64,000 bases of DNA, taken from assembly GCF_002019605.1 (NCBI RefSeq), contig NZ_KV917368.1, positions 5,157,885 to 5,221,884 of the forward strand, written 5' to 3'. A model generated the notes under the pieces. It was not told where the DNA came from and ran no database searches. It was given only the letters and a program-made list of their open reading frames with translations. The DNA comes from Alkalihalobacterium alkalinitrilicum. GTDB lineage: Bacteria > Bacillota > Bacilli > Bacillales > Bacillaceae_F. Position 1 is the stretch's first letter. Every line of letters starts with the position of its first letter. A program made the position numbers and the translations under genes. This document shows positions 52,798-55,299 of the stretch, in pieces.

Positions 52798-53988
52798 ATG
52801 CAGAACACACCAAAATTGAGTGAAGAGCAACAGACGCTAAAATGGTTTTTGGGGTTATTTTATATTATATTTCTTGGATATGATATTTTCTATTTTTACA
52901 TTTGGAGTACAGAGCCAGGCTTATCGAATATAGGCATAGGCTATTGGCTTCATATTATAATGCTTTCCCTTTTACCAATCTCTATTTATTTAATAAAAAA
53001 GGGGAAATCCGAATCCATAAAATATATGTATTTTATAACTTTTTCATTACTAACAGTTATAAATGACATTATATACTATTGGGGTAGTTCAGTTAGTTAT
53101 AGTAGTGGTAATATAGTGGAAATATTCTTTGTTTTATTTTCACCTATATTTGTAAATAAAAATTTCTTTTTACTAGTATCTTTTGGGATGCTTTTAAAGT
53201 TTGCTCTTTTAGGATTAGTCCTACAAGACCCAGCCGTTATGTTTCCTATCCTTATCGTAGTTGTTTTGGCAATGGTCGCCTATATTCTATTAAATCGTTT
53301 TTTAAGTTATATTATGGCTGTAAAGACCTCGTATGATAAACAGCTAGAGGGAATTGTAAAAGGTATTATCGCAACATTAGAATTAAAAGATCCTTATACA
53401 CGTGGTCATAGTGAACGCGTAGCAGATTATGCTGTTATACTTGCAAAAGAGCTAGGAAAGTTCAAAAAAGATGAGCTTAAATCTTTTTATCATGTGTGTT
53501 TGTTGCATGATATCGGAAAAATTCACATACCAGATTCAATTTTAACGAAACCTTCTAGATTGACTGATGAAGAATATGAAATTATAAAAACACATCCTGC
53601 AGTTGGTGCAGAAGCAATTAAACATGTAGCAGGGATAGCGGATCATATTGATATCGTACGTTACCATCATGAGCGCTGGGACGGAAAGGGATACCCTGAG
53701 CAATTAAAGGGTGAAAATATACCTTTGCTTTCAAGAGTGACTGCGATTGCAGATGCATTTGATGCTATGACATCTTCAAGGTCATATCGTTCCGCATTAT
53801 CTGTTGAAGAAGCTTATCAGCGGATTGTGGATGGTAAAGGAACGCAATTTGATCCTAATTTAGTAGAGTTATTTAAAATAATATATCCATCTTGGTGTGA
53901 CTATCATAAAAAATATCCTTGGCAAGAAAAAAGCCTCGGTAAAGCTGTAGTGTCTAAAACAGGAGGTGAAACAATTGAAAATTCGTAA
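52798..53988 (+). CDS. Membrane-bound HD-GYP domain phosphodiesterase
   Basis: 396 residues behind TTAGGAGTTAAAG. An N-terminal half with five to six hydrophobic segments (about 15-180) serves as membrane sensor. The HD-GYP domain at about 185-370 has HSERVADYA, CLLHDIGKIHIPD (His237-Asp238), THPAVGAEAI, HHERWDGKGYPEQLKGE (His290, His291, Gly-Tyr-Pro at 298-300) and AIADAFDAMTSSRSYR. All metal and GYP residues are kept, so c-di-GMP hydrolysis is likely. It overlaps the start of a 21-codon peptide gene by 14 bp and is followed by a PqqD/M50 protease, so it may belong to a signalling unit. Confidence 0.9.
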   Translation: MQNTPKLSEEQQTLKWFLGLFYIIFLGYDIFYFYIWSTEPGLSNIGIGYWLHIIMLSLLPISIYLIKKGKSESIKYMYFITFSLLTVINDIIYYWGSSVSYSSGNIVEIFFVLFSPIFVNKNFFLLVSFGMLLKFALLGLVLQDPAVMFPILIVVVLAMVAYILLNRFLSYIMAVKTSYDKQLEGIVKGIIATLELKDPYTRGHSERVADYAVILAKELGKFKKDELKSFYHVCLLHDIGKIHIPDSILTKPSRLTDEEYEIIKTHPAVGAEAIKHVAGIADHIDIVRYHHERWDGKGYPEQLKGENIPLLSRVTAIADAFDAMTSSRSYRSALSVEEAYQRIVDGKGTQFDPNLVELFKIIYPSWCDYHKKYPWQEKSLGKAVVSKTGGETIENS

Positions 53989-54040
53989 GCTAAAAAAAAT
54001 CAAATTAACTTGCTGGTGGTGCACGTTTACTGGTCGTTAA
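53975..54040 (+). CDS. Putative 21-residue Cys/Trp peptide (RiPP or signal precursor)
   Basis: TTG 53975 behind a perfect AGGAGGTGAAACAA. The peptide has a strongly basic N-terminal half (MKIRKLKKIKL) and a distinctive second half, TCWWCTFTGR, with two Cys separated by two Trp. The start lies inside the HD-GYP coding end in another frame. A hairpin with T-rich tail follows at 54061, then the PqqD-like/M50 protease gene. Precursor peptide, terminator, processing enzyme is the usual order in RiPP and peptide-pheromone loci. Too short for homology; translation is supported by the ribosome site only. Confidence 0.6.
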   Translation: MKIRKLKKIKLTCWWCTFTGR

Positions 54041-54060
54041 GCGGCGAATCTTTAGATTTA

Positions 54061-54092
54061 CAGGATGCTAAGATAAACTAGCATCCTTATTT
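54061..54092 (+). terminator. Hairpin between peptide gene and M50 gene
   Basis: GGATGCTA-agataaac-TAGCATCC, 8-bp perfect stem, followed by TTATTTAATTT. A partial terminator here would give more peptide message than protease message. Confidence 0.65.
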
Positions 54093-54117
54093 AATTTACT
54101 TGAAGGGATCGTTTAAT

Positions 54118-55299
54118 GTGAAACTATCATTACAATCTCAAATTAAACTATTTCCACTGAATATAAGAAAAGATCAAAAGCATTATATCGTCGAAGAAAT
54201 CAATTCAGGTGACTTTTTTGAGATGCCTAAAATGGGTGTTGATGCCATCCGTTTAATCGAGAAGGGTGAATCATTAGAGAAAATAGACCTAGAATTAAAG
54301 ATAAAATACCCCGATTCCCCAGTTGATTTAGTAGATTTTGCTCAACAACTTTTGGAGTTGGAGTTGATTCAAGAAGTTGACGGGGAAACGGTTCACATAA
54401 AAACGAAAGATAAAGTAGAGAGAGAATATAAATGGATTAAGCCTCTAGTCGGACGCTTCTTTTTTAATCGATTAACAAACAAAATATATATGGTATTAGT
54501 TGTAGCTAATATTCTTTTTCTGATTATGAATCCGCAATTATTCCCAACTTACCGAGATTTATTTTTATTCGATGCAATAATGGCTAATATTCTAATTTGG
54601 ATGGGGATTTCCTTAATATTAGTTTTATTTCATGAGCTTGGCCATATATTAGCCGTCCGTTCATATGATTTACCTGCAAAACTAGGGATCGGAAATCGTC
54701 TTTTTTTGGTCGTTTTCGAAACTGATTTGTCAAACGCATGGAAACTTCCATCTAAGCAAAGAAATGTATTGTTTTTTGCGGGGATTTGTTTTGATCAACT
54801 GATGCTGTTCATTGTATTTTGTTTACAATTCTTTTTCCAGTTTAGTCATCCGCTTATTCTAGGTATTTTAGGTCTCATTGTACTTGATATCTTCATTAGA
54901 ACAATTTATCAATGTTGTTTCTATATGAAAACAGATTTATATTATTATTTTGAAAATATCACTGGGTGTTACAACCTTATGGAAAATAGTATGCAATATT
55001 TAAGTAAATGGGTACCATTTATAAAAAAAGATTCAAGCACTGAGGCTTTCGATGGAGAAGAGAAATTTGTTAAAATTTATAGTTTGTTTTGTGTCGTTGG
55101 CATCACTTTAACTTTTAGTGTATTTATATTTTATTTTATGCCTCAAGCTTTTTATGCGTACAGCAAAGCATTGCCGGAATTATTCCAACCGAATAACAAT
55201 CCATATTTTTGGGATGCCTTAGTTTTTATTGGCCAGTCCTTATTAATAGCTGGATTATTACTGTACTCTTTGATTAAAAAGCGCAAGATAGGAGAATGA
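54118..55299 (+). CDS. PqqD-like domain plus M50-type membrane metalloprotease
   Basis: About 393 residues from GTG 54118, chosen for AAGGGATC at good spacing over the TTG at 54100. Residues about 10-90 (FPLNIRKDQKHYIVEEINSG, FFEMPKMGVDAIRLIEKGES, VDFAQQLLELELIQEVDG) form a PqqD-like winged helix of the sort that binds leader peptides. Then five to six membrane helices, with zinc motif HELGH at 172-176 inside a helix (LILVLFHELGHILAVRSYDL) and a possible third ligand in YMKTDLYYYFENITG. It resembles YydH and other site-2-type proteases of RiPP gene clusters. Likely substrate: the upstream peptide. No radical-SAM or ABC exporter is beside it. Confidence 0.75.
   Translation: MKLSLQSQIKLFPLNIRKDQKHYIVEEINSGDFFEMPKMGVDAIRLIEKGESLEKIDLELKIKYPDSPVDLVDFAQQLLELELIQEVDGETVHIKTKDKVEREYKWIKPLVGRFFFNRLTNKIYMVLVVANILFLIMNPQLFPTYRDLFLFDAIMANILIWMGISLILVLFHELGHILAVRSYDLPAKLGIGNRLFLVVFETDLSNAWKLPSKQRNVLFFAGICFDQLMLFIVFCLQFFFQFSHPLILGILGLIVLDIFIRTIYQCCFYMKTDLYYYFENITGCYNLMENSMQYLSKWVPFIKKDSSTEAFDGEEKFVKIYSLFCVVGITLTFSVFIFYFMPQAFYAYSKALPELFQPNNNPYFWDALVFIGQSLLIAGLLLYSLIKKRKIGE

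Follow-up and report, generated by a model that had tools for sequence, protein, structure and literature searches.

A conserved cassette of a MASE12-HD-GYP protein, a Cys-Trp-Trp-Cys peptide and an RRE-M50 protease is a candidate peptide signalling system

In the SHP/Rgg and cAD1 (Eep) systems, an M50-type protease trims a short hydrophobic peptide signal that is sensed inside the cell after import. Here we describe a different arrangement around an M50-type protease in Alkalihalobacterium alkalinitrilicum. The DNA analysed, hereafter the window, is a stretch of 64,000 nucleotides (contig NZ_KV917368.1, positions 5,157,885 to 5,221,884 of the forward strand) and carries a cassette of three genes. 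These encode an HD-GYP protein with a MASE12 membrane sensor, a 21-residue peptide with a Cys-Trp-Trp-Cys (CWWC) motif, and an M50 membrane protease with an N-terminal PqqD-like domain of the leader-binding RRE type.

In the Bacillus subtilis yydFGHIJ/epeXEPAB locus (PMC7026026, PMC10885120), the M50 protein EpeP/YydH is thought to cleave and export a small peptide. This epipeptide locus and the cassette both combine a small peptide gene with an M50 membrane protein, but the former has a radical-SAM epimerase and an ABC transporter, whereas the cassette has the MASE12-HD-GYP protein and an RRE-like domain on its protease. A preliminary description of the window had pointed to this difference, which extends to relatives: the cassette is not constantly accompanied by a radical-SAM or an ABC gene, other protein clusters occurring in at most 9 of 37 loci. 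In the pearlin/3-thia-amino acid clusters (PMC10885120), the M50 proteases TglG and TmoG act on a ribosomal scaffold peptide; these clusters release a modified C-terminal amino acid, whereas the cassette has no kept modifying enzyme.

The daptide M50 protease (NCBIfam NF041824) resembles the cassette protease over much of the protein (3.7e-6), but at 26.3 bits the match is far below the 300-bit cut-off of that family. SHP and cAD1 are sensed intracellularly, whereas the only fixed partner of the cassette peptide is a membrane HD-GYP protein. Loci combining an E1-like (ThiF) gene, an M50 gene and tandem peptides share with the cassette a homologous M50 protein and peptides in which a short core of variable sequence follows a similar basic leader, but differ in having an E1-like enzyme, up to four tandem peptides, no CWWC and no MASE12-HD-GYP protein. 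The cassette HD-GYP protein itself differs from PmGH and other HD-GYP phosphodiesterases by a Tyr at the E185 position and by the MASE12 sensor in front. The cassette fits none of the families tested in full and most resembles a peptide signal with its protease and receptor. A description of it was not found in the open-licence PubMed Central literature, as represented by titles, the starts of abstracts and some passages, and a word search for MASE12 returned two papers, neither of them on that domain by title or abstract.

The cassette and its peptide

The first gene of the cassette (52798..53988, + strand) encodes a MASE12 membrane sensor (aa 9-165; Pfam PF20971, 3.1e-37) followed by a predicted cyclic di-GMP (c-di-GMP) phosphodiesterase domain of the HD-GYP type (PF13487, HD_5, 4.3e-36). 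The second (53975..54040, + strand) encodes the peptide MKIRKLKKIKLTCWWCTFTGR, which reads MKIRKLKKIKLT-CWWC-TFTGR and comprises a leader (aa 1-12), the CWWC motif (aa 13-16) and a variable tail (aa 17-21). Its TTG start at 53975 lies within the HD-GYP gene, giving an overlap of 14 nt, and its stop codon occupies 54038-54040; the Shine-Dalgarno sequence AGGAGGTG (53961..53968, + strand) was read in the sequence 6 nt 5' of the TTG. The third gene (54118..55299, + strand), whose GTG start at 54118 is assigned by homology, encodes the RRE-M50 protease, with the PqqD-like domain at approximately aa 1-90 (54118..54387, + strand) and HELGH at 54631-54645. Between peptide and protease genes stands a hairpin, AGGATGCTA..TAGCATCCT, with a T-rich 3' side (54062..54087, + strand). 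The TTG-started frame, its ribosome site, its overlap with the HD-GYP gene and the hairpin with its T-rich tail had all been proposed beforehand, and each is present in the sequence.

A search of named genomes with the M50 protein gave 36 loci, whose genera include Virgibacillus, Sporosarcina, Gracilibacillus, Oceanobacillus, Solibacillus and Neobacillus; this search works through short peptide patterns and does not amount to a census. Stops or frameshifts in homologous loci had been named among the ways to disprove the peptide; the frame lies 5' of the M50 gene, free of both, in 36 of 36 fetched relatives. With the window included, the order HD-GYP/peptide/M50 is the same in 37 of 37 loci, the link to HD-GYP being fixed, and the peptide start falls at most 29 nt ahead of the end of the HD-GYP frame and at most 35 nt past it. 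Purine-rich stretches resembling ribosome sites precede the homologous peptide starts among the relatives listed. In the Pallidibacillus cassette (L041, 1-721), the contig start truncates the HD-GYP gene, which is also divided between two frames.

Apart from the three cassette genes, the most widespread protein clusters reach 9 of 37 loci (an ABC transporter-like cluster, named by eye rather than by family search, with positions that vary between loci) and 8 of 37 (GGDEF, of which six are stand-alone cyclases directly upstream). Among the commonest 7-, 8- and 9-mers 5' of the HD-GYP gene, only an 8-mer of the A-run type (11 of 36 loci) exceeded the maximum of 20 shuffles (10), and no shared promoter motif emerged. 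Simple patterns in the same 36 loci found sigma-A-like sites in 11 and Spo0A-like boxes in 4, and none of the sigma-H-, sigma-B- or sigma-D-like kind.

In a second set, of 397 genomes sampled from the order, the peptide (E <=4e-8) and the M50 clade (at least 390 bits) occur in an identical 42 genomes; 16 further genomes with weak peptide matches only (E 0.003-0.1) were treated as chance. This set overlaps with the named genomes and the counts are not summed. MASE12 ends 647-701 nt before the peptide in 41 of the 42, the exception (G069) lying at a contig end. All three genes are missing together from one of four genomes of the window's genus and from two of three others of its family (G003, G004, G006). 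In a sample of 299 genomes of the phylum, drawn to look beyond the order (4 of the order, 7 of the class and the rest from the wider phylum, among the genomes listed), only the window's own genome matched.

The peptide frame is under selection at the protein level. Over 41 aligned peptide genes (the 42 less L026, which has a two-residue insertion), the ratio of non-synonymous to synonymous differences (pN/pS) is 0.14 over codons 2-16, where the two shifted frames give 1.06 and 1.25. By part, it is 0.21 for codons 2-12 and 0.80 for the tail (codons 17-20, all pairs). A 36-row alignment, with start codons read as M, shows no variation at M1, K2, L6, T12, C13, W15 and C16, although Pro replaces T12 in two further genomes. 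Leader and CWWC are thus nearly invariant, and the variable part is the C-terminal tail, of two to nine residues, which together with the MASE12 sensor and the conservation of the hairpin is an observation beyond the preliminary description.

The tails are aromatic and rather basic: over 42 tails, the aromatic fraction is 0.296 against a mean of 0.132 in 1000 shuffles, and the acidic fraction 0.016 against 0.061. In two pairs of relatives (L014/L016 and L032/L038), the tails differ by four synonymous changes and no others; the pooled tail ratio of 0.23 (21 pairs) is biased low because the pairs were chosen by tail identity. No NCBIfam family matched the window peptide or nine other peptides, and a Pfam zinc-finger match of the window peptide (E 0.048) was below threshold and was taken as chance. 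No modifying enzyme is kept beside the peptide among the 37 loci, a result that covers linked genes and not an unlinked enzyme or a disulfide.

The protease, the hairpin and related loci

At E <=1, Pfam finds M50 in all 27 aligned M50 proteins and PqqD in seven (best 5.1e-4); in the window protein itself PqqD was not found, and Peptidase_M50 scores 26.6 bits, 0.6 bit under the cut-off of 27.2. Across these 27 proteins, H172, E173, H176 and D273 are invariant, and HExxH and the motif YQCCFYMKTD, which contains D273, are nearly or fully so. The protein has six hydrophobic segments. An HExxH within the region of hydrophobic segments and a further Asp, the hallmarks of M50 membrane proteases, are both present, and D273 is the probable further metal ligand.

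The AlphaFold model of the M50 protein (mean pLDDT 81.8) has an N-terminal domain of four strands followed by three helices. Its best Foldseek matches in the Protein Data Bank (PDB) are the RRE of TbiB1 with leader peptide (probability 1.00, E 0.016-0.16, TM 0.63-0.71 by target). Next come another lasso B1 protein with its leader, a sactipeptide maturase and McbBCD; the best nine chains have probabilities of 0.90-1.00 and E-values of 0.016-0.63, weak values because the domain is a quarter of the query. The membrane part of the model gave no clear PDB match by Foldseek, and a search by sequence for a solved structure of the M50 protein gave only chance-level matches. As modelled, the N-terminal domain of the protease has the fold of leader-binding RRE domains. 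The idea that a PqqD-like domain is joined to the M50 protease, first put forward from the window alone, is thus upheld by the seven Pfam matches and by a model whose best matches are RRE:leader crystal structures.

The hairpin is conserved between peptide and M50 genes, its 5' arm being within one mismatch of GGATGCTA in 34 of 42 loci. Of the 38 loci with at most three mismatches, between 30 and 38 have a standard pair at any given one of the eight positions; some pairs show changes on both sides, and the loops measure 3 to 14 nt. The motif GGATG[CT]..[GA]CATCC occurs 30 times in the cassette interval and nowhere else in the 516 kb of the 36 loci and the window, against a mononucleotide-shuffle mean of 1.2. 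Of 20 further loci with a pattern-found peptide, 16 have a somewhat broader form of the motif (missing from L108, L125, L127 and L136), and the hairpin is absent or different in L004, L008, L009 and L028. Across many genera the stem is kept in sequence and not in pairing alone. Judging by its T-rich tail, the hairpin is probably a partial terminator and would reduce the expression of M50. Rfam has no family at the hairpin; a bxd_3 match that overlaps the peptide (E 0.41; 26 bits, where the gathering score is 70) was rejected.

Similar motifs were seen in three other loci (L095, L104 and L105). Those of L104 (~2317) and L105 (~176) are GGATG..CATCC hairpins directly 3' of genes for MASE12 histidine kinases, and neither a peptide nor an M50 match was found in the genomes concerned.

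The next M50 group occurs at 18 places in the 397 genomes (166-267 bits, one 54-bit fragment left out), with proteins mostly 24-29% identical to the window protein. An M50 tree (43 + 20 rows) separates this sister group from the cassette group with SH-aLRT 100, by a quick method and over long branches. At all 18 places the M50 gene stands beside a protein of one cluster, and the three members tested are E1-like (ThiF/MoeB-type), below every cut-off. One to four peptides accompany the pair at 16 of the 18 places, their leaders exemplified by MKIEVKKTEKLKPT and their cores short and variable; a simple scan of 500 nt found none at L091 and L097. Aligned with the CWWC leaders, the sister leader profile matches weakly (hhalign P 5e-4, probability 31%), and the E1-type peptide profile passes the inclusion threshold on 17 of the 42 CWWC peptides. 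The likeness of the sister leaders to the cassette leader supports recognition of the leader by the RRE-M50 protein.

These sister loci (L080-L097; e.g. L086 2797-4500 and L094 119-1647), with an E1-like gene, an M50 gene and one to four tandem peptides of 20-26 residues whose basic leader is conserved and whose core varies, look like a family of the order of the ribosomally synthesised and post-translationally modified peptide (RiPP) type, of which the literature searched gave no description. L093-L095 also carry genes resembling OppA (tested in L094) and the major facilitator superfamily (by eye). Mobility of the cassette was considered and set aside: protease relatives occur in 28 plasmid records, all below 60% identity, and both of the two inspected have a ThiF gene. 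These ThiF and M50 pairs are on Nocardia and Streptomyces plasmids (L140 4650-7212, L141 2841-5218); the Nocardia plasmid has a candidate peptide ending VVISIRRLDKKETTGLPCSGNGAS 5' of its ThiF gene.

MASE12 proteins and the variation of the tail

In the 35 aligned cassette HD-GYP copies, the HD, HHE and GYP residues are invariant, and the domains match PmGH over their length (2e-44). PMC4159591 describes eight metal ligands of PmGH and a Y/F subfamily of HD-GYP at the E185 position. By our own mapping on the alignment, seven of the eight are kept and the E185 position is Tyr. With the motifs and most of the ligands in place, the first gene is predicted to encode an HD-GYP c-di-GMP phosphodiesterase.

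A survey of the 397 genomes found 77 MASE12 matches in 51 (matches in two others fell short of the Pfam cut-off and were not used), and all 77 genes were classified, most by motif and ten by Pfam. Forty-two are HD-GYP genes: 41 lie directly 5' of the peptide and one is a second tandem copy at a cassette (G005), so that no MASE12-HD-GYP protein without the peptide was seen among the 77. The other 35 are histidine kinases, of which 22 are no more than ~2.2 kb from the peptide, whether upstream of it, downstream of it or divergent; 3 others are at a distance in genomes that have a cassette, and 10 in genomes that have none. A control group of peptide-less MASE12-HD-GYP proteins was dropped, as the 19 proteins outside the cassette clade of the tree are histidine kinases; all ten of these tested with Pfam were kinases, nine with MASE12 and one (L042_P1795) with another sensor. 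We give no weight to the tree split (42 cassette copies, support 100/100), because it stems mostly from the difference in output domains.

In genus g21 the same neighbours flank MASE12 kinases without (L098-L101, L106, L107) and with (L108, L114) the HD-GYP/peptide/M50 block, which therefore looks to have come or gone as a unit. The best NCBIfam matches of three MASE12 kinases are AtoS, ZraS and then KinD, a sporulation kinase (176-181 of 775 bits); any role of these kinases in sporulation is a guess. MASE12 kinases away from cassettes were seen at L098-L107, L110 and L144, and in one genus such kinases adjoin antiporter-like, acetyltransferase-like and HtrA-like genes (names given by eye).

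The variation of the tail was compared with that of the four protein domains over 40 loci, each domain being tested given the other three. Tail distance is correlated with MASE12 (partial r 0.231, 0/1000 permutations) and with HD-GYP (0.160, 0/1000 permutations), and shows no correlation with RRE (-0.077) or M50 (0.036). Linkage alone would predict the opposite of the MASE12 correlation, because MASE12 is encoded farthest from the peptide. Mean identity across cassettes is 0.45 for MASE12 and 0.70 for HD-GYP. The pattern seen is that of a conserved leader and a variable core that varies with the sensor domain of the putative receptor; it is a correlation, with ancestry not fully removed and a negative result from the kinases.

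A model for the cassette and its alternatives

We propose, with slightly more belief than doubt, that the three genes form a self-contained peptide signalling cassette, in which the RRE-M50 protein matures the peptide, MASE12 perceives it and c-di-GMP hydrolysis changes. The peptide would be made as a leader (MKIRKLKKxKxT), a CWWC core and a lineage-specific tail. The RRE domain would grip the basic leader, and the membrane-embedded M50 domain would cut near the conserved Thr12/Cys13 and pass the short hydrophobic core (CWWC and tail) into or across the membrane. There the MASE12 domain of the neighbouring HD-GYP protein may perceive the core, mainly through its tail, and c-di-GMP hydrolysis would rise or fall. 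The peptide may also be read by a MASE12 histidine kinase where one is a neighbour, as in about half of the genomes, and the hairpin may hold expression of the protease below that of peptide and receptor. These findings agree with the original suggestion that the peptide is cut or released by the protease, perhaps to act as a signal.

A bolder statement, that an RRE-guided intramembrane protease frees a Cys-Trp-Trp-Cys peptide whose lineage-specific tail is read by MASE12 and wired to c-di-GMP destruction and, via sister MASE12 kinases, possibly to the spore decision, the whole being a new class of signalling, is one that we put forward tentatively and would doubt a little sooner than assert.

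Several points count against signalling by a released peptide. These can be summarised as (i) translation, cleavage and secretion of the peptide are without proof; (ii) a separate exporter or importer is not kept with the cassette in the 37 loci; (iii) the Mantel tests of tail distance are inflated by shared ancestry; (iv) the modelled fold match to RRE domains has no E-value of 0.001 or better; (v) 13 of the 35 MASE12 kinases have no cassette nearby, and 10 have none in the genome, so MASE12 can act without the peptide; (vi) the MASE12 of a kinase is not closer to that of its own cassette (0.365 vs 0.361, p 0.26, 19 loci); and (vii) the tail pN/pS of 0.80 over all pairs could also mean weak constraint.

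Alternatively, the peptide may not be released and may instead be a membrane-associated regulatory subunit of the MASE12-HD-GYP protein, removed by the RRE-M50 protein to reset the phosphodiesterase within one cell. The peptide is short, basic and hydrophobic, its tail varies with MASE12 and HD-GYP, its start close to the HD-GYP end in 37 of 37 loci (-29 to +35 nt) suggests coupled translation, and no exporter is kept. However, maturation agrees better than destruction with a leader-binding RRE fold and with the nearly invariant Thr that precedes the core. The leader is also one of the best-conserved parts of the peptide, and a regulatory subunit would have no need of it. We regard such a subunit as unlikely, if still worth serious attention.

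An antimicrobial, bacteriocin-like peptide, which the M50 protein would both mature and export in the manner of the epipeptide system while HD-GYP only times its production, is less probable again. The role envisaged for EpeP/YydH (cleavage and export of the epipeptide; PMC10885120, PMC7026026) and the aromatic, rather basic tails would favour it, but the cassette has neither an immunity gene nor an ABC gene as a constant companion and the tail correlates with a sensor domain.

We give little credence to the possibility that the CWWC pair is a thiol-redox or metal-binding sensor with a tail nearly free to vary. It would account for the invariance of C13 and C16 in 36 aligned peptides and for the tail ratio over all pairs; against it, the tail composition is far from random, and some relatives' tails differ synonymously only, in pairs biased by their choice on tail identity.

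In trp operons tandem Trp codons precede a terminator-like hairpin, and here two TGG codons are followed directly by a conserved hairpin with a T-rich tail, but that the frame is an attenuator leader setting M50 expression, its peptide idle, is scarcely credible, as the leader is under selection for its amino acids throughout (pN/pS 0.21 for codons 2-12, 5' of the Trp codons) and not for control codons alone, the downstream protein has an RRE-like domain, and no competing antiterminator was recognised by eye.

To our knowledge, the outside cues that feed into c-di-GMP are poorly known in Gram-positive bacteria. The cassette peptide is a genetically encoded candidate ligand for a membrane c-di-GMP enzyme and makes this question directly testable, the more so as its three small genes can be transferred to a laboratory Bacillus. 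The cassette further suggests that genes of ~20 codons hide more widely beside RRE-M50 proteases, including those of the E1-like tandem-peptide loci.

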